From Barnesiella viscericola DSM 18177 (GTDB lineage Bacteria; Bacteroidota; Bacteroidia; Bacteroidales; Barnesiellaceae), in the NCBI RefSeq assembly GCF_000512915.1, contig NZ_CP007034.1:186001-250000 (forward strand): DNA of 64,000 nt, written 5' to 3'. Position 1 is the first letter of the stretch. Each line of letters starts with the position of its first letter. Positions 2,747 to 35,605 of this stretch are shown here, one piece after another. The notes under the pieces are model-generated. The model did not search any database and was not told the origin of the DNA. It saw only the letters and a program-made list of their open reading frames with translations. The position numbers and the translations under genes are program-made.

Positions 2747-2943
2747 TACAATAACGGAACAGTAAATTTTTAGGGAAGAACTTCTTGGTTCGATGTTAAC
2801 AGATTCTTCCTCGCATTTGTTTTTAAAGTCGTGGAGCAGGGGAGAAGTCTCCCATTTGATGGGGCAGAGCACATTCCGAGCAATAGGTTGCCGGTTCCCA
2901 CTGGTTTTCTTGCGGGTATTCTTTCCGGCTTCGGGTTTTGTCG

Positions 2944-2951
2944 TATTTTTG
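2944..2951 (+). promoter_or_regulatory. Promoter -7 box TATTTTTG
   Basis: Matches the Bacteroidetes -7 consensus TAnnTTTG. It ends 4 bases before the GTG proposed as the start of the DUF454 gene, so transcription should begin at or next to the start codon. No good -33 TTG is seen at the usual 19-21 base spacing. Confidence 0.5.
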
Positions 2952-2955
2952 CACC

Positions 2956-3315
2956 GTGAAAGTTATCTATATTCTTTTAGGCGGACTCTCTCTCGGCTTG
3001 GGGGTAGCCGGTATCTTCCTGCCGCTGTTGCCTACCACCCCTTTTCTGCTGCTGTCGGCAGCCCTGTGGCTGCGCAGTTCGCCACGGCTCTATCATTGGC
3101 TTTTGAATCACAAGCGGCTGGGTCCCTATATCCGCGACTTTCTCGAACATAAGGCCATACCGCTGCGGGTGAAAATCATCTCGGTATCGCTGGTGTGGAT
3201 TACGCTGCTCTATTGCGCCCTGTTTGTGGCTCGGGTGTGGTGGCTCGCGCTCTTGTTTATCCTGCTGGCCATGGCCCTGTCGTGGCATATCCTCTCGTAC
3301 AAGACCCGCAGATAG
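2956..3315 (+). CDS. DUF454 (YbaN-type) inner-membrane protein
   Basis: A 119-residue hydrophobic protein with an N-terminal membrane segment containing the family's GIFLPLLPTTPFLLL stretch, a short soluble part (RLGPYIRDF) and two further membrane segments near the C terminus. This order is typical of DUF454/YbaN proteins, whose biochemical role is unknown. A TTG at 2938 is in frame, but it lies upstream of the -7 promoter box, so GTG at 2956 (MKVIYILLGG) is preferred. The gene ends six bases from the stop of a convergent gene. Confidence 0.82.
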   Translation: MKVIYILLGGLSLGLGVAGIFLPLLPTTPFLLLSAALWLRSSPRLYHWLLNHKRLGPYIRDFLEHKAIPLRVKIISVSLVWITLLYCALFVARVWWLALLFILLAMALSWHILSYKTRR

Positions 3316-17628: not shown

Positions 17629-18267
17629 ATGGATAAAGAGCGCTTTTTGGCCTTCTATGAAGAGGCAGGATACCGGGTTGTCGACTCGTTTGCATACAGC
17701 GACATCAAACTCTTTCTGATGCGGAATCGCCCCAAAATCGCTTGCCGGGTGCTCTACGGGGTTATTATGCTGTTGATACTCTTAGGTATTGGATTGATGA
17801 TAGGGGGCTTGTGGAAACAGGCCGGAGAGGCCGGGCAGTTCTGGCTCGAAACAGGCGGAAGTCTCATTTTTGCCTTGGTCGGTTGCGCCCTCCTTATCCC
17901 GGTACACGAGTTTATACATTGGCTCGTTTATCGGAGCGAAGGGGCTGCCGATGTCCGTTTCGGAGCCATTTGGCACTCTTTTGCCTTCTATGCGGCCGCA
18001 CATAACTTCCTGGCCGATTACAAGACCTTCAAACGCATCGCTCTGGCCCCGCTGTATCTGTTGTCGGCTCTGTTGCTCTTGTTGCTGTTGTTCCCCATGC
18101 CGCTGTGGGGTAAGGTGGCCGTGGCCCTTGTGCTGCTGTTTCACCTCAGTTCCTGCTCGGGAGACCTGATGATGCTTGCGTATATGAGCCGGTACAAGCA
18201 CCGCCGTGTGTTTACGGTCGACGATATGGATAACCAAGTTACCTATTTTCTGGAAAAACAATCATGA
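17629..18267 (+). CDS. DUF3267 putative membrane zinc metallopeptidase in the feo operon
   Basis: A 212-residue protein with two N-terminal membrane segments (about 40-60 and 78-95), an HEFIH motif (His93, Glu94, His97) at the end of the second, and two more hydrophobic segments (about 140-170). HExxH within a membrane helix is typical of zinc peptidases of the DUF3267 family, which are mostly uncharacterised. It starts 23 bases after feoB, and its TGA stop overlaps the ATG of the next gene (ATGA), so translation is probably coupled. Iron import or processing of a membrane partner is an inference from context only. Confidence 0.82.
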   Translation: MDKERFLAFYEEAGYRVVDSFAYSDIKLFLMRNRPKIACRVLYGVIMLLILLGIGLMIGGLWKQAGEAGQFWLETGGSLIFALVGCALLIPVHEFIHWLVYRSEGAADVRFGAIWHSFAFYAAAHNFLADYKTFKRIALAPLYLLSALLLLLLLFPMPLWGKVAVALVLLFHLSSCSGDLMMLAYMSRYKHRRVFTVDDMDNQVTYFLEKQS

Positions 18268-27340: not shown

Positions 27341-29695
27341 CTATCGCTTGATACCTTTTACCACCGTAGCCTCATGTTCTCGCACTACACGCACGAAATA
27401 GGTTCCCGTAGCCCAGGCCGAGGCGTCGATGACCGCTTGTCGTTCGGTCTTATCCAGCTCCCGGCGATACATGGTCCGGCCACTTTCGTCCGATACGATG
27501 ACGGTCTGTGCTCCCTCGGGAAATTCTACCGTCACCTCCTGGTCAAATACAGTCGGATAGAGCGTTACTTGTGGAGCAACCACCTGTTCTACGGCACTGA
27601 CACCATTTACACTTTGAGTAACCTTGATGTCATAGGTCGAGATGCTGTCGTTCAGGGTAAGTGTTGCCACCCGTTCTTCGATACCGTCGGGCAGACGGTC
27701 ATACGAAATCAGTAGCGTATCAAGAGTGAGACCATTCGGTTTGCCTACGACCCGACACCAGTCGGCATCGCTCTGGACAGGAGTTTCATAACCATATATC
27801 GAGAAGAAAGGATACTCGACCGTACCAGCCTCTTTCCCCACTACCAGTGGTTCACGGTCGGTCGGGATAGGCGACATGACCGAGTGTATGATCGAAGGCA
27901 TGATCATGTAGGAGGTGTGGTTGGCCCCTGCCGGGAAATAGGTACTTACGTCAATCCACTCCTTGTCTTTATACATGTAGGCCGTGTTCCCGTGGTCGCG
28001 GAACCGAGCCATGGCAAAGGAGACATCGACACTGTCGTTCTTCTCGGGGATACCGTCGACTACGATAAAGAATTCGTCATCGATGACCTTGGGGTTAAAT
28101 TCAAATGCCGTACCAATCATCGTATTGCCCGATGGGGTATCCAGCTCGAATACTCGCCACCAGGTTGAGTCGAGTTTCTTGCCCGGCAATCCGTTTTCGC
28201 TGGTATAGAGATGTACTCCCACATCGGCAATCTGGTCGAGCAGATCTACGGCCGAAGCGGTGACGAAATAGACATAGGCTCCAAATACCAGGATAGGACG
28301 CGAGGGTTTGGAGAACTTTTCGGCATAGGCGGTGATACCCATGCTGTTGGTGCCGGGGAAAGTTCCGTAGCCTTCCAAATCGAACGTAGTCGCCTGGTCT
28401 CCAGGCTCGAAGTTGGTAATCAATCCGCTGTATTCTACCGATACATCTACTGCATCGTCCGATTCGCCATGTTCGTTAGCTACATGCAAACCCACGGAAT
28501 GCTGGTGGAGGAAGTTGTAGGCTACAACCGGATTCTCCTCGGTCGAGGTTACCTGGGTATAAGGCTCGGGGCTCACTCCGTCGAAGGTCCATTCCCACGA
28601 AGTGGGGTAACCCGTCGAGTTGTCTTGGTACTGTACCCCGACCAACGGAGCCACCATGGGCAGACGAGTCTCGCTGAATCGGAATGTGGCCGGGGGCAAT
28701 ATGTGGGCTGTTGGAGCGGTGCCGGTTACCTTGACAAAAGCGGTGCGGGTCTTCGTGTCGCTACCCTCGGCATTGCTGACGGTCAGGGTTACATCGTAGA
28801 GCCCGTCACGGGTGTAGTATACCCGGGGATTCTGCTCGGTCGAGGTCGCCGGCGTTCCGCCGGGGAAAGACCATTGCCAGGCCGTGGGATTCCCGGTCGA
28901 CATATCGGCAAAGGCAATCTCTTCGCCCGTATTTACCGCTACTTGTTCGATGGTTGATACACCGGTCAATTTCAATCCGTCGATGGCAAAGTCTCCAAAA
29001 TAACCTCCCGAATTAAAGAAGTCGTCTTTACCCGAGGTATAGGTGAACCGTATCTGTACCTGTTGCCCGGCATACTTTTCGAGCGATACCGAAAATTCGT
29101 GCCAGCGCCAAGGCTTCTCTCCGTTTTCATCGGCACTGTTCCACAGCAATTCCGATGTGGCAAAAGCATCGGTCGATACCGCGATGTGCAGTCGGCAGAA
29201 ATCGTCCATGTTCTGGCTGAATCCAACATATCCTTTTAGCATGGCATTGGCCGGTACATCGAGTTGGGGACTGGTAGCCGTGGCTATGCCTCGTTCGGCA
29301 TATGAATATGGGCCTTCGATATATAAGGATTGTACATCGTCTGAGTCGTAGGTAGAGAATGCTCTCTCCGGTGTTTTCGAGTTAACATACTGCATCAGCT
29401 GCCAGGATATGCCTTCGGCGTTGACTAACGTCCAGCCCTCTGTTCCGTCATCAAAGTCTTCTTCCCACATGGTCACCTCACTGCCTGCACTTTGGCAGCT
29501 GAAATCGGCCGTGATGCCGGCAGCTGTCGAGCGGAACAGGTGAGGGGCCGATTGTTTGCCGGCAAATGAGATGCGTGGCGCTTCGGTCGGGGCAGTCCGT
29601 TTGTGTACGCGCTCTTGTACCAGTTGCTGAGCTCCTGTCGGGAGTGCAGCACAAAGCGCCATAGTCAGGATTAGGTTTACAAATACATTTTTCAT
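27341..29695 (-). CDS. Secreted PKD-domain protein with type IX sorting tail
   Basis: The 784-residue exported protein starts with a signal peptide (MKNVFVNLILTMALCAAL, cleavage near TGAQ). A choice-of-anchor J domain begins at WEEDFDDGTEGW (about 80-235), then two PKD domains (e.g. WQWSFPGGTPATS near 275 and WEWTFDGVSPEP near 365), a region with no recognised domain, an Ig-like segment, and a C-terminal Por secretion tail (GTYFVRVVREHEATVVKGIKR-type). The tail implies export by the type IX secretion system and anchoring to the cell surface; no catalytic domain is evident. It follows a related but interrupted gene after 18 bases. Confidence 0.85.
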   Translation of the reverse strand: MKNVFVNLILTMALCAALPTGAQQLVQERVHKRTAPTEAPRISFAGKQSAPHLFRSTAAGITADFSCQSAGSEVTMWEEDFDDGTEGWTLVNAEGISWQLMQYVNSKTPERAFSTYDSDDVQSLYIEGPYSYAERGIATATSPQLDVPANAMLKGYVGFSQNMDDFCRLHIAVSTDAFATSELLWNSADENGEKPWRWHEFSVSLEKYAGQQVQIRFTYTSGKDDFFNSGGYFGDFAIDGLKLTGVSTIEQVAVNTGEEIAFADMSTGNPTAWQWSFPGGTPATSTEQNPRVYYTRDGLYDVTLTVSNAEGSDTKTRTAFVKVTGTAPTAHILPPATFRFSETRLPMVAPLVGVQYQDNSTGYPTSWEWTFDGVSPEPYTQVTSTEENPVVAYNFLHQHSVGLHVANEHGESDDAVDVSVEYSGLITNFEPGDQATTFDLEGYGTFPGTNSMGITAYAEKFSKPSRPILVFGAYVYFVTASAVDLLDQIADVGVHLYTSENGLPGKKLDSTWWRVFELDTPSGNTMIGTAFEFNPKVIDDEFFIVVDGIPEKNDSVDVSFAMARFRDHGNTAYMYKDKEWIDVSTYFPAGANHTSYMIMPSIIHSVMSPIPTDREPLVVGKEAGTVEYPFFSIYGYETPVQSDADWCRVVGKPNGLTLDTLLISYDRLPDGIEERVATLTLNDSISTYDIKVTQSVNGVSAVEQVVAPQVTLYPTVFDQEVTVEFPEGAQTVIVSDESGRTMYRRELDKTERQAVIDASAWATGTYFVRVVREHEATVVKGIKR

Positions 29696-29713: not shown

Positions 29714-31333
29714 TTATTTGATAAATTTGATCTGTTCCGATTTTTCGCCTTCGGCAGTCCAGCGGGCAATGTAAAGGCCCGTCGGGAGTTGCGACACGTC
29801 GAGTGTTCCACCCTCTACCTGGCAAGAGATTACCGTTGCTCCACGCACGTCAACGACGTCGAGATGACCGGTCGATTTCAAGACAAGCGATTGAGATTCT
29901 CGTTGGTAATAGATACCTGCGGTTTGCAACGTCTCGTCGATAGCCGAAGCAACATTGCTCTTGATTGAGCAATAGCTGAGGTAGAGTCCCCATGGATCTG
30001 GCGAAGTGATGTGGAAGCCGAGATACCAGTCGCCTTCTTCGGGGACATCAAAGTCAACTGAGTAAAGTTCAGGCAGGGTCGACCTGATTTCGGGATAAGA
30101 GGCGATAACTTGTTGGCTTTCGCCCGGTACGACATCTTTGCTCAGTGTAATCTCCATCGATTCGGGATAACGATATGAATAGGCACTGGCTCGGAAATCA
30201 AGCGTATGAGAGCCCTTCCCGGCTTTGAAGGGTGGGGTAAACAGCCAGTCATCGGCTGCCGAGTAGGCGGTGTATTCCATATCATCATCGTCATCGTTAT
30301 AGACCCAGCTCTTGCCGTCGTTGTTGCCGTCGACAATGGTCCACAGGGCAGTTTCGTCGGCCGTAGCCATTTCGGTTTCATAGGGCAAGGCCAATGCTCC
30401 TCCGAATACCAACGCATTCGAGGTGGCCGGCTCGCTCTCGGTATCGCCCAACAAGGCCGTTACCTCATAGCTGTACAGAGCCAGGGCAAGATCGTCGGTA
30501 TCGATATAGGTCGTGTCGGTCAACTGTTCGGTCAGCAGTTCATTCCCGGGGTTGCGCACGATGCGATAGATAATCGACTCCCGGTCAATGTAGCCTCCAT
30601 TTGCTCCACCGGCAGGTGTTCTGAACGAGAGGTGAGGCGTTCCATCAACATTACTCAGCGTCAGCTCGGTTACAGGCATGGGGATATCGACACCGATCCA
30701 TGCCGATTCGGTGGTTGTGGCTTCACCGGCATTCTCGTCTACATATCCCACTACTTTGTAAAGATAGCTTCCCGGTGCGGGGACAGTCTCGTCGACAAAC
30801 TGTTGGGCTGTTCCCATTTCGGGTTCGAGTTGCGTATCGATGAGCGTCTCGTTGCGATACAGCTCCATTTTTGTCAGATGTGACAACGGAGTCCCAGCGG
30901 CCGAAAGTGAAGGATTGGTCCACTGGATAGTAGCCGACAATGCTCCATTTTCACCGGGTGTAACGGTCAAATCGGATACTGCTGCCGGGACTTCGACGGT
31001 TTCGTCAATAGCCAGGTCGTCGACAAAGATGGCATAATAACTGGTGGATCCCAAGCAGTGGAATCCTATATAATACCCGCCCGATTCGGTGACGGTGAAG
31101 AGAACCTCTTTTTCTTCCATCAAGGCCGACTCGATGGTTTCATGGAACAGCTGTCGCGATTGCGATTCGGCCGTAGCCTGGCTTCCTATTGTGACATATA
31201 GATCTTTATAGTCGGAAGATGATGCGCGTTCGAGACCAGTCTTGAAAACCAGCTTGTAGTTCTTGCCCGCTTGCAGGCTCAGTTGAGGGGTGATAAGCCA
31301 CTCGTCGGCATCATATCCACCATAAAATTGCAT
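29714..31333 (-). CDS. 3' segment of the split type IX cargo gene
   Basis: 539 codons starting at an internal ATG (MQFYGGYDADEWL) that lies inside an anchor J domain, so this is not a natural start and has no signal peptide. It holds the rest of that domain, two Fn3-like domains (AAVSDLTVTPGENG onward), a third anchor J domain (IVDGNNDGKSWVYND) and a Por secretion tail (GLYIARWTAEGEKSEQIKFIK-type). It is followed after 18 bases by the intact PKD cargo gene. A functional product would need readthrough of the upstream TGA. Confidence 0.6.
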   Translation of the reverse strand: MQFYGGYDADEWLITPQLSLQAGKNYKLVFKTGLERASSSDYKDLYVTIGSQATAESQSRQLFHETIESALMEEKEVLFTVTESGGYYIGFHCLGSTSYYAIFVDDLAIDETVEVPAAVSDLTVTPGENGALSATIQWTNPSLSAAGTPLSHLTKMELYRNETLIDTQLEPEMGTAQQFVDETVPAPGSYLYKVVGYVDENAGEATTTESAWIGVDIPMPVTELTLSNVDGTPHLSFRTPAGGANGGYIDRESIIYRIVRNPGNELLTEQLTDTTYIDTDDLALALYSYEVTALLGDTESEPATSNALVFGGALALPYETEMATADETALWTIVDGNNDGKSWVYNDDDDDMEYTAYSAADDWLFTPPFKAGKGSHTLDFRASAYSYRYPESMEITLSKDVVPGESQQVIASYPEIRSTLPELYSVDFDVPEEGDWYLGFHITSPDPWGLYLSYCSIKSNVASAIDETLQTAGIYYQRESQSLVLKSTGHLDVVDVRGATVISCQVEGGTLDVSQLPTGLYIARWTAEGEKSEQIKFIK

Positions 31334-31357
31334 GAGTTGTTTCGAACTATAATAGCG

Positions 31358-32572
31358 TCAACTCTTACTATCGTTATTCCCGTCGATGATGGTAAACAGG
31401 TCGAGAGCCGACTCGGTATCGAAACTCTCGCTGTATGGCAACTCTTTCATGCCTCCGGCAACGACTCGGTTCGAGGTGACCGGGGCGCTCGATTTCCCAT
31501 CGAAGGTCGCTGTGACCGTATAGGTATAACTGCCCAGTTCGGGTACTACGTCCACATAGGGCAAGGGCCCAGAAAAATCTTCGGTCAATACGCCACCCGG
31601 TGTGCGGCTTATCTGGTATGTGAGAGCCGCCGGATCGATATATCCTCCATTTTTCCCGGCAGTGGGCGGAGTGAACGAGAGCGTTACTGTCTCGTTTTCG
31701 GCGGTGGCGGTCAGTTGGGTTACCGCTTCGGGGGTATCGTACCCTATCCACGGCGAGGAAACCGAAATGGCATTACCTTGGGCATCGCCAAAACTGTTGT
31801 AGGCCACAACCTCGTAGTCATAACTTCCGGCTCGCTCGATAGTTTGGTCGGTCCATTCGGTAGCTTGACCTATGGTGGCTTCTTCGATAGTCGTTATCAG
31901 GTCGCCGTCGCGGTATATTTTCGCTCCCGACAAGAGGGTAAGCGGGTTCCCATACTGGTCGGTCGATGGCCAGGTCCACGACAGATGAGCCGACAGCTCT
32001 CCGGCTTCTCCGGCCTCGACCGTCAGGTCTGAAACCTGAGCCGGATAGATAGGAGCCTCTTCGACAACTATCTTTTGCAGATAGAGGTCACCATTAAAAG
32101 AGTCACTGTAACAGTGAAGACCGATGTAGTAGGTTCCACTTTCGTCGGGTGAGAAGGTGCCCGATTTTTCAACGAAGAATTGGCTTTTGAAAGATTCGTC
32201 CGAAAACAATCGGGTTGTCAATCCGTCGACGGTAGCTTCGCGACCTATCTTCAATTCGATTTTTTGGCAATCATAAAAAAAGGAAGATTCATGTTTCACA
32301 TAGGCCGATACGTTGTAGGTTTTACCGGCATCGAGCGTGACGGCAGGGGCAATGATCCAGTCGTCGGCATCACTTGATTCCTGTTCATACCAAGCGCCGT
32401 CTTCGCTGTAAACCCAAGTGTTTGGGCTCACTGCTTGGTTGTTGTCGATAACAGTCCATTGAGTGGAAAATGTTTCGGCATCTACAATTTCAAATGTACA
32501 CGGTGGAACATTCTGTGCCCGGGTTGGCAACAAGCAACCCAGTAAAAGGAATACAGATGTAAGTTTTTTCAT
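31358..32572 (-). CDS. 5' segment of the split type IX cargo gene
   Basis: 404 codons before the premature TGA. Signal peptide MKKLTSVFLLLGCLLP with cleavage near TRAQ, then an anchor J (jelly-roll) domain at about 25-190, two fibronectin-III-like domains (starting near YPAQVSDLTVEAGE and near PEAVTQLTA), and the first strand of a second anchor J domain, which is cut by the stop. If translated as is, the product would be exported to the periplasm but would lack the sorting tail needed for surface delivery. A TATCTTTG box at 32798-32805 on this strand could drive it. Confidence 0.6.
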   Translation of the reverse strand: MKKLTSVFLLLGCLLPTRAQNVPPCTFEIVDAETFSTQWTVIDNNQAVSPNTWVYSEDGAWYEQESSDADDWIIAPAVTLDAGKTYNVSAYVKHESSFFYDCQKIELKIGREATVDGLTTRLFSDESFKSQFFVEKSGTFSPDESGTYYIGLHCYSDSFNGDLYLQKIVVEEAPIYPAQVSDLTVEAGEAGELSAHLSWTWPSTDQYGNPLTLLSGAKIYRDGDLITTIEEATIGQATEWTDQTIERAGSYDYEVVAYNSFGDAQGNAISVSSPWIGYDTPEAVTQLTATAENETVTLSFTPPTAGKNGGYIDPAALTYQISRTPGGVLTEDFSGPLPYVDVVPELGSYTYTVTATFDGKSSAPVTSNRVVAGGMKELPYSESFDTESALDLFTIIDGNNDSKS

Positions 32573-33011
32573 AACTATTCTATAATATGATGAATATACT
32601 CGTCAAGTCAATACAGATTGTCTGTATTGTTTTTATATCATCTTCCGCATGTTGCGTGACCTTGTATATTTCGGAGGGAGAATGTTGCTTCAGCGGCGAG
32701 AATATTGGGGTTCACAGCTTCGGTTGCATGTTTCTGACTACTATAAATACCAATTGTGTTTTTTACCTTTTTGGGGTATGATGGTCTGTCGTCTCTACAA
32801 AGATATATAAAATTTACAATTTGAAAATATTTTTATTGAAAAAAGTAGAAATATTATTTGGGTTTGGTTCTTTTGTGAAAATATGATATGGCTCTAATCG
32901 GGATTATGACATTTTGTAGAGTTGTTCCTGTTAAATCCTTCTCACCAGGGAAAAACCTTGGAACTGACCCTCTCTTTTTATTATCTTTGTCTTTACAAAA
33001 AGACGAGATGC
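32573..33011. other. Divergent AT-rich intergenic region
   Basis: 439 bases between the cargo operon (minus) and the ATP-grasp-like gene (plus). It holds a minus-strand TATCTTTG (32798-32805) and a full plus-strand promoter (32958-32989). An ORF at 32587-32781 has no recognisable features and is probably not a gene. Confidence 0.6.
32958..32989 (+). promoter_or_regulatory. Promoter TTG-N21-TATCTTTG
   Basis: TTG at 32958-32960 and TATCTTTG at 32982-32989 with a 21-base spacer, ending 22 bases before the GTG start at 33012. Its position argues against the in-frame upstream TTG at 32922 as a start. Confidence 0.7.
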
Positions 33012-34196
33012 GTGAACCTCTATCTGTTTAATCCTGAGAATGATTTGGCCATAGCCTTTGGCGGCGTGAACTATACTCCGCCTCCGGCCGCCCAACTTAT
33101 TGGTCGCGAGTTATCGCTACTCCCGCTGTGGTATGCCGATGAAGGCACACCGACTGTTATCGCTCCGCCCGACGCGGTCCCCGACGATTTTCGCCGGTCG
33201 CTGGAACCTTTGGGGGTATCGGTCTCGACCGTGACCTGGCCACAACTGGCCGAGTGTCGGGTTGATCAGGTAAACGTGTGGGGGTGGAATCACGATCTGT
33301 CCAGGCGATTGAGCCAGGCGGGTGTAGATGCCAGCCTGCTACCGACTCCCGCTCAGTGTGACCGGATTCGGGAGCTTTCTCACCGACGGTTGGCCACCGA
33401 GGTGGGGCAATATCTCTCCGAGCATATCGACTATCCCTTTCCCGAGTTGCCGGTCGAACTGCACACGCCCGACGAGGTTAGAGTCTTTACCGAACAGCCC
33501 GAACGCCGGGTGCTCAAAGCTCCCTGGTCGGGTAGTGGTCGGGGGCTTTATTGGAATCTCTACGGCTATGACCGTTCGCTGGCCCAATGGAGCAACGGGG
33601 TGTTGCAAAAACAGGGAGCTCTCATGGGCGAACCGTTTTACGACAAGGTGAGCGACTGGGCCATGGAGTTTCACAGCGATGGCCAAAGAGTGACATTTGC
33701 AGGATATTCATCGTTCCTTACCGACGGACATGGGGCTTACAAGAGCAATCGGCTGGCCCCCGACGACTCTTTGAAGCGGGAGTTGTGCGCAGTTGTAGGA
33801 GACGAGTTTATGGAGAAGGTGAAAATATCGCTCATCGACTTCTTTACTTCCCGCATAGCTCCTTGTTATCGGGGATGTTTCGGCGTCGACATGATGCTCT
33901 ATCGAGCCTCCGACGGGACTGTTCGTCTGCACCCCTTTGTCGAGGTAAACCTTCGCATGAATATGGGTATGGTAGCCCGTCGCATCGCCGACCGTTTTGT
34001 GGCCGAGGGGTGCGAAGGGGTCTATCGGGTAGACTATTCCCCCCGAGCCGGCGAACTTTATCGCGACCATCTCGAGCGTCAGCACGAGAATCCGGCAGTT
34101 ATTCGTCAAGGGAAATTGGTGAAGGGCTATTTCGCACTTACCCCGGTGTGGACACATAGCCGTTATCGGGCGAGTATCGAAGTATTCCCGTCGTAA
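33012..34196 (+). CDS. Conserved hypothetical protein with ATP-grasp-like features
   Basis: A 394-residue soluble protein starting at GTG (VNLYLFNPENDLAIAFGG). I do not recognise a named family. A central VLKAPWSGSGRGLYW (about residue 166) looks like the ATP-grasp lysine strand plus glycine loop. A late HPFVEVNLRMNMG (about 309) looks like the Glu-x-Asn metal-binding strand of that fold, and MEFHSDGQRVTFAG between them fits the middle domain. If so, it would ligate a carboxylate to an amine or thiol using ATP; the substrate cannot be inferred. The next gene, tspO, starts 65 bases downstream. Confidence 0.6.
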   Translation: MNLYLFNPENDLAIAFGGVNYTPPPAAQLIGRELSLLPLWYADEGTPTVIAPPDAVPDDFRRSLEPLGVSVSTVTWPQLAECRVDQVNVWGWNHDLSRRLSQAGVDASLLPTPAQCDRIRELSHRRLATEVGQYLSEHIDYPFPELPVELHTPDEVRVFTEQPERRVLKAPWSGSGRGLYWNLYGYDRSLAQWSNGVLQKQGALMGEPFYDKVSDWAMEFHSDGQRVTFAGYSSFLTDGHGAYKSNRLAPDDSLKRELCAVVGDEFMEKVKISLIDFFTSRIAPCYRGCFGVDMMLYRASDGTVRLHPFVEVNLRMNMGMVARRIADRFVAEGCEGVYRVDYSPRAGELYRDHLERQHENPAVIRQGKLVKGYFALTPVWTHSRYRASIEVFPS

Positions 34197-35058: not shown

Positions 35059-35155
35059 GATTCATTTATGCTTACATTTGACCGAGAGTTTTTCGGTGCT
35101 CATCTTCTGTTGAGTGTCGGGAACTTTAAAGCCCAATCTAAACGGAACACCAATT

Positions 35156-35605
35156 ATGATTGTTACCAACTTGCAGCATACCGCCCGCATCGAGTCGCTT
35201 CACCCGCGCTTCAAAGAGTTGTTCGACTATGTAAGGAGTCACGACATCTTGCACATGCCTTGCGGACGCATTGAAATCGATGGCGACGCCCTTTTCATCA
35301 GCAACGACAATCCCGAATGCCTCCCGGCCGAGAAGCAGGTTTTAGAGGTACACCGCAAATATATCGACGTGCAGATTCTCTTGGAGGGCCGTGAGACCAT
35401 GGGGTGGAAGGCTCTCGACGATCTTACCGACGAAGTGAAGCCTTATGATCCGCAACGCGACTGCGCTTTTTATGCCGACCGTCCCACCTCGTGGCTTCAT
35501 CTGGTGCCCGGCCAGTTGGCTGTCTTCTTCCCCGAAGATGCTCACGCTCCGATAATCGGTGAGGGAAAGATTCGCAAGATGATAGGGAAAGTACGAATCG
35601 ACTGA
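35156..35605 (+). CDS. YhcH/YjgK/YiaL family protein
   Basis: A 149-residue cupin-like protein of the DUF386 family. Relatives are linked to sugar acid or sialic acid catabolism (YhcH), possibly as an anomerase or isomerase. Conserved pieces are EVHRKYIDVQILLEG with the metal-site His/Asp pattern, and AVFFPEDAHAPII near the C terminus. ATG 35156 (MIVTNLQHTARIES) is chosen over an in-frame upstream start at 35114 because it matches the family N terminus. No sugar-catabolism neighbours are present, so the substrate is open. Confidence 0.88.
   Translation: MIVTNLQHTARIESLHPRFKELFDYVRSHDILHMPCGRIEIDGDALFISNDNPECLPAEKQVLEVHRKYIDVQILLEGRETMGWKALDDLTDEVKPYDPQRDCAFYADRPTSWLHLVPGQLAVFFPEDAHAPIIGEGKIRKMIGKVRID

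Follow-up and report, generated by a model that had tools for sequence, protein, structure and literature searches.

A type IX secretion cargo gene of Barnesiella viscericola interrupted at a conserved tryptophan codon, probably by a recent nonsense substitution

Nonsense pseudogenes of surface and secreted proteins are a well-known kind of bacterial locus, and the one described here resembles recent examples in that one in-frame stop interrupts an otherwise conserved gene whose counterparts in relatives are intact. It also resembles the type A cargo of the type IX secretion system (T9SS) with choice-of-anchor J domains (NF038128, TIGR04183), with which it shares a signal peptide, a sorting domain that scores over the cut-off and, in the intact homolog L004, three J domains. 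A third point of comparison is the readthrough of UGA by a near-cognate tRNA-Trp, which likewise involves a UGA at a Trp position (PMC13092985).

The DNA analyzed is a stretch of 64,000 nucleotides of B. viscericola DSM 18177 (contig NZ_CP007034.1, positions 186,001 to 250,000), hereafter the window; coordinates without a prefix are those of the window, and the genome it comes from is G000. Judging from sequence comparison, we consider that a nonsense substitution in a conserved Trp codon recently inactivated the focal gene, with a probability of about 0.77.

The interrupted frame and its domains

The focal frame lies on the minus strand at 29714-32572 and, by translation, has 952 codons before a terminal TAA. 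Its sole internal stop is a TGA at 31360-31358, codon 405, which is followed by a C; the 547 codons on its 3' side contain no further stop and no frameshift. The first-pass annotation had described two open segments in one frame, separated by this TGA, with eight sense codons before the next ATG, and translation agrees (the codons read RYYSSKQL, and the ATG is at 31333-31331). It had placed a signal peptide in the first segment and a sorting tail in the second, and both assignments stand, the former by eye and the latter by a TIGR04183 match. The repeat DGNNDGKSW, to which it had compared the interrupted site, is indeed present later in the same frame (about 30305-30331), within the third choice-of-anchor J domain. 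The features are as follows, from the start of the gene onwards.

31361..32572, minus strand: N-terminal open segment with the signal peptide, 404 aa by translation
About 32516-32572, minus strand: signal peptide MKKLTSVFLLLGCLLPTRA, followed by Q; cleavage between A and Q judged by eye
32090..32494, minus strand: choice-of-anchor J domain 1, 21.6 bits, below the family cut-off of 30
31010..31435, minus strand: choice-of-anchor J domain 2, cut by the TGA; approximate limits, carried over from residues 381-523 of the intact L004
31358..31360, minus strand: in-frame TGA, codon 405, at a Trp column in the four orthologs found
29714..31357, minus strand: C-terminal open segment, 547 codons and the TAA stop; first ATG at 31331-31333
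29993..30349, minus strand: choice-of-anchor J domain 3, profile match
29717..29878, minus strand: T9SS type A C-terminal sorting domain, TIGR04183, 23.3 bits against a cut-off of 23
27341..29695, minus strand: neighbouring intact cargo-type gene with a PKD domain; its sorting tail and J domain score below cut-off

The Q directly after the signal peptide agrees with the Bacteroidetes Q-rule (PMC10653852). The signal peptide of the N-terminal segment was judged by eye, the scripted check being applied to tail-bearing ORFs; in the C-terminal segment, this hydrophobicity script found no signal-like start under its strict or its relaxed rule. The Pfam tail model PF18962 gives 19.7 bits on the C-terminal segment, under its cut-off of 27. 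In L004, three choice-of-anchor J stretches are recognized (NCBIfam, NF038128), the best of them covering residues 381-523, and since residue 406 of L004 is the Trp aligned to the focal stop, the latter cuts J domain 2 near the start of the domain. For a fold model of L004 (mean pLDDT 74.3, pTM 0.31), the 50 PDB matches listed have TM-scores of at most 0.34, and most are multi-domain chains of receptors, fibronectin and the like; beyond a string of beta domains, such modelled matches tell little about the protein. Searching solved structures by sequence turned up a single weak match. The neighbouring cargo-type gene lies 18 bases downstream of the focal gene and adjoins it in the four relatives too.

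Orthologs and the age of the stop

A DNA search of nine genomes of the genus matched the focal gene in five, the window's genome included, and a protein search of the same nine returned full-length matches only in those five, the remaining rows being partial. Three of the four orthologs, L004, L005 and L006 (genomes G008, G003 and G006), each consist of one uninterrupted ORF, of 952, 954 and 952 aa respectively. In the alignment, all four have Trp at the column of the focal stop, and none has a stop there. Because the two segments correspond to one continuous ortholog in three relatives, the split frame is, on these alignments, more than a chance juxtaposition. The arrangement that the first-pass annotation had set against its own reading, namely two complete separate genes in close relatives, each with its own signals, was seen in none of the five gene-bearing genomes checked.

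The fourth ortholog (L008) belongs to the closest relative, G001, at 87-88% DNA identity; G001 is taken to be the metagenome-assembled Ca. Barnesiella excrementavium, the first 200 bases of its locus L003 recurring in L008. L008 keeps the Trp at the focal column, and its frame is continuous across the focal site. It is broken by an in-frame TAA of its own (positions 2917-2919 of L008, codon 129), which falls in the first J domain and beyond which the rest of the frame is kept; the window copy has K at this codon, and the other orthologs Q, Q and S. The two closest genomes thus carry one stop each in the same gene, at different sites. As the sister's stop differs from that of the window copy, the sister seems from these sequences to have lost the gene independently, and loss looks recurrent. 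Altogether, four rows of the protein search had an internal stop: the focal gene (TGA), the sister copy (TAA) and, in the window genome, two partial matches (TAG and TAA), which led to loci L050 and L051.

The omega between the window copy and its sister is 0.18 before the focal stop and 0.13 after it. Private changes were scored at the columns invariant in L004, L005 and L006, the focal stop itself being left uncounted. The window copy has them at 6 of 222 columns before the stop and 5 of 301 after it (p = 0.54), and since they are not raised after the stop, the focal lesion looks young. Relaxed constraint is thus not seen in the window copy, which fits a recent event or readthrough: as far as substitutions can tell, either the lesion arose late compared with the separation of the two species, or the cell still makes the protein. 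This counts to some extent against inactivation, purifying selection after the stop being equally expected under readthrough. In the sister, 8 private changes precede the focal stop site and 16 follow it, a total of 24 against 11 in the window copy (p = 0.04), which is what would be expected if the gene had been lost there earlier. The neighbouring gene shows 7 and 6 private changes, respectively, in 527 columns, and the contrast between lineages (24/11 against 7/6, p = 0.50) is not clearly specific to the focal gene.

From the stop, the Trp of the relatives and the continuous frame, we infer that codon 405 is most likely where ribosomes stop. Sec would export the 404-aa product, which, without a sorting tail, would be expected to stay in the periplasm and probably be degraded there, and not to reach the surface. 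The second half, having no signal peptide, would be untranslated, or cell-bound even if started at the internal ATG. These export and retention steps are drawn from knowledge of the family. The T9SS component SprA, which we take to be a core part of the system, is intact in the window genome (2878.5 bits; an open frame of 2503 aa, with no stops), so that the secretion system is not obviously lost.

Alternative readings of the stop

The first-pass annotation had left three readings side by side: a fresh nonsense mutation, a sequencing error, and programmed or leaky readthrough. The first has gained, with Trp in 4/4 orthologs and an intact ORF in 3/4. Programmed readthrough has lost ground, as the stop occurs in none of the relatives, the one in the sister differs in both type and position, and no decoding machinery was found in the searches reported below.

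The main rival, which we nevertheless regard as unlikely, is a base-call or assembly error: the gene of the strain would be intact, and the TGA an artefact of the deposited sequence. A single substitution with the frame conserved on both sides is what such an error would leave, and several of the other lesions in cargo ORFs of G000 are frame changes, a type that errors also produce. Against it, the genome is a single contig (3,076,856 bases, 99.87% complete), and the sister copy is interrupted too, by a separate stop. A local control points the same way. We compared the 23 main ORFs of the window (51-34720), picked by eye, with contig C50 of G001. Two ORFs without a match in G001 were excluded, as was 2793-3152 (119 aa), a possible non-gene whose frame is not kept in G001. 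Across about 28 kb of coding DNA, 19 of the 20 assessable genes are intact, free of stops and frameshifts, in both genomes; only the focal gene is broken, once in each. The local error rate therefore looks low. The ORF 32922-34196 looked misframed relative to G001, though its counterpart there is an intact ORF of 443 aa; the misframing appeared to come from a listed start upstream of the gene. For the 19 genes that remain without this ORF, two single lesions would hit the same one with a chance of 0.07 by length and 0.16 when weighted by dN, so the two lesions could be a coincidence.

Leaky readthrough is improbable. A near-cognate tRNA-Trp would read the UGA at a low rate and yield a little full-length protein, the gene being turned down and not off. 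UGA followed by C is a weak termination context in bacteria, and at a Trp site it is a stop that a normal tRNA-Trp could misread with the correct residue. Conservation of the frame persists beyond the stop, but a recent origin accounts for this equally well. In E. coli, UGA can be read by the tRNAs for Trp and Cys, with an influence of the fourth base (PMC5373646), and UGA-C is described as a weak context for eukaryotic reporters (PMC9841425). A tRNA-Trp with a 4-bp anticodon stem is a known route to UGA reading (PMC13092985); the one tRNA-Trp in the genomic stretch examined has a CCA anticodon and a canonical 5-bp anticodon stem, so that this route is inapplicable here. Also against readthrough, the focal stop is found in none of the four relatives, and that of the sister is a TAA, at another site.

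The release factor RF2 is present in the window genome (447.7 bits, cut-off 370). Its gene prfB (L154) has an in-frame TGA-C near its start, deduced from three frames, and presumably placed where the usual autoregulatory RF2 programmed frameshift site sits. The genome thus holds another in-frame TGA-C, which may be counted on the side of leaky readthrough.

More speculative, and a shade more doubtful again, is the idea that a Bacteroidales lineage keeps some large type IX cargo genes at a leaky, low level through misreading of UGA-C as Trp, the sister's stop being a convergent down-tuning. If this were true, a surface antigen would be made in few molecules or few cells, and purifying selection would persist behind the stop.

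Fission into two functional genes, a periplasmic N-terminal part and a C-terminal part made from an internal start, is very improbable. An ATG does lie eight codons past the stop, but the cut is inside a J domain and the second part has no signal-like start. Moreover, the split form occurs in no relative: three of the four orthologs are undivided, unbroken genes, and in the fourth the break lies at another place.

As to a change in the meaning of UGA, the first-pass annotation had judged general recoding unlikely, citing TGA as the terminator of ordinary genes, for example at 18265-18267 and 35603-35605. TGA does end the ORFs 17629-18267 and 35114-35605, and these ORFs, RF2 and the canonical tRNA-Trp uphold that judgement. 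Among the 23 main ORFs of the window (51-34720), the stops are TAA in 15, TGA in 4 and TAG in 4. No SelB match over the cut-off was obtained in any of the five genomes searched. With the tRNA-Sec model, the sole match over the cut-off in the window genome and the next best, below it, are both tRNA-Ser genes; this assessment covers the two best of ten matches, all but the first of which are below the cut-off. Selenocysteine insertion or wholesale UGA-to-Trp recoding, for which only the in-frame TGA at a Trp column could be invoked, has a negligible chance and was rejected, given the SelB and tRNA-Sec results, the presence of RF2 and the ordinary genes that end in TGA.

Broken cargo genes in the genus and comparison with known systems

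Two observations go beyond the first-pass annotation: the independent stop of the sister, and the other broken cargo ORFs of the window genome. In G000, 60 TIGR04183 tails were found at E up to 0.01, some of them below the curated cut-off. Of these 60 tail ORFs, 53 have a signal-like start according to the hydrophobicity script, and 54 with the relaxed rule, the added one being agreed by eye. Six of the 60, the focal gene included, seem broken upstream, by lesions of various kinds; the other five were read from their frames without homologs, and errors may be among them. In a second Barnesiella, G003, 3 of 97 tail ORFs seem broken upstream. The cases other than the focal gene are these.

L076 (G000): sorting-tail ORF, one frame change
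L063 (G000): sorting-tail ORF, one frame change
L062 (G000): sulfatase-like gene, named by eye, several frame changes
L085/L050 (G000:C1:2309000-2317000): cargo-type ORF without a signal peptide, in-frame TAG and TAA
L084 (G000): sorting-tail ORF, signal peptide without a start codon
L120 (G003:C2:72372-76303): cargo-type ORF, in-frame TAG after the signal-peptide part, then open to the sorting tail
L107 and L119 (G003): sorting-tail ORFs, frame changes

The difference between the two genomes is suggestive only, an excess in G000 over G003 not being established (6/60 against 3/97, p = 0.086). SusC-type genes served as a control: none of the 13 matches over the cut-off in G000 has an internal stop, and the excess of broken cargo ORFs over this control is not significant (6/60 against 0/13, p = 0.58). 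In G003, 28 SusC-type matches exceed the cut-off, among them the two pieces of a single broken gene at G003:C2:499671-502827, one of which contains a TGA.

One simple pattern was considered for these lesions and rejected. Recurrence of one type of stop codon does not describe them, the lesions being TGA in the focal gene, TAA in its sister, TAG and TAA in L050, TAG in L120, and frame changes in L062, L063, L076, L107 and L119. Ordinary mutation appears to be removing members from the cargo repertoire to which the focal gene belongs.

The comparative value of the locus is modest: two sister Barnesiella with a different single stop each in the same secreted-protein gene. With about a tenth of the sorting-tail ORFs of G000 looking broken upstream, it becomes possible to measure how type IX cargo turns over in gut commensals. 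A word of caution concerns annotation, which may list a tail fragment as a protein despite its absent signal peptide.

Set beside the known systems, the locus differs from each in one respect or more. Compared with T9SS type A cargo of the choice-of-anchor J kind, the focal frame is interrupted in J domain 2. Compared with the readthrough that relies on a tRNA-Trp with a 4-bp stem (PMC13092985), the stem here is of 5 bp and UGA is a normal terminator. Compared with recent nonsense pseudogenes of surface and secreted proteins, the locus is distinguished by the other stop that its counterpart in the closest sister carries. On the sequences compared, it is most likely a nonsense pseudogene of ordinary kind and recent date, within a set of secreted proteins that is prone to turnover.
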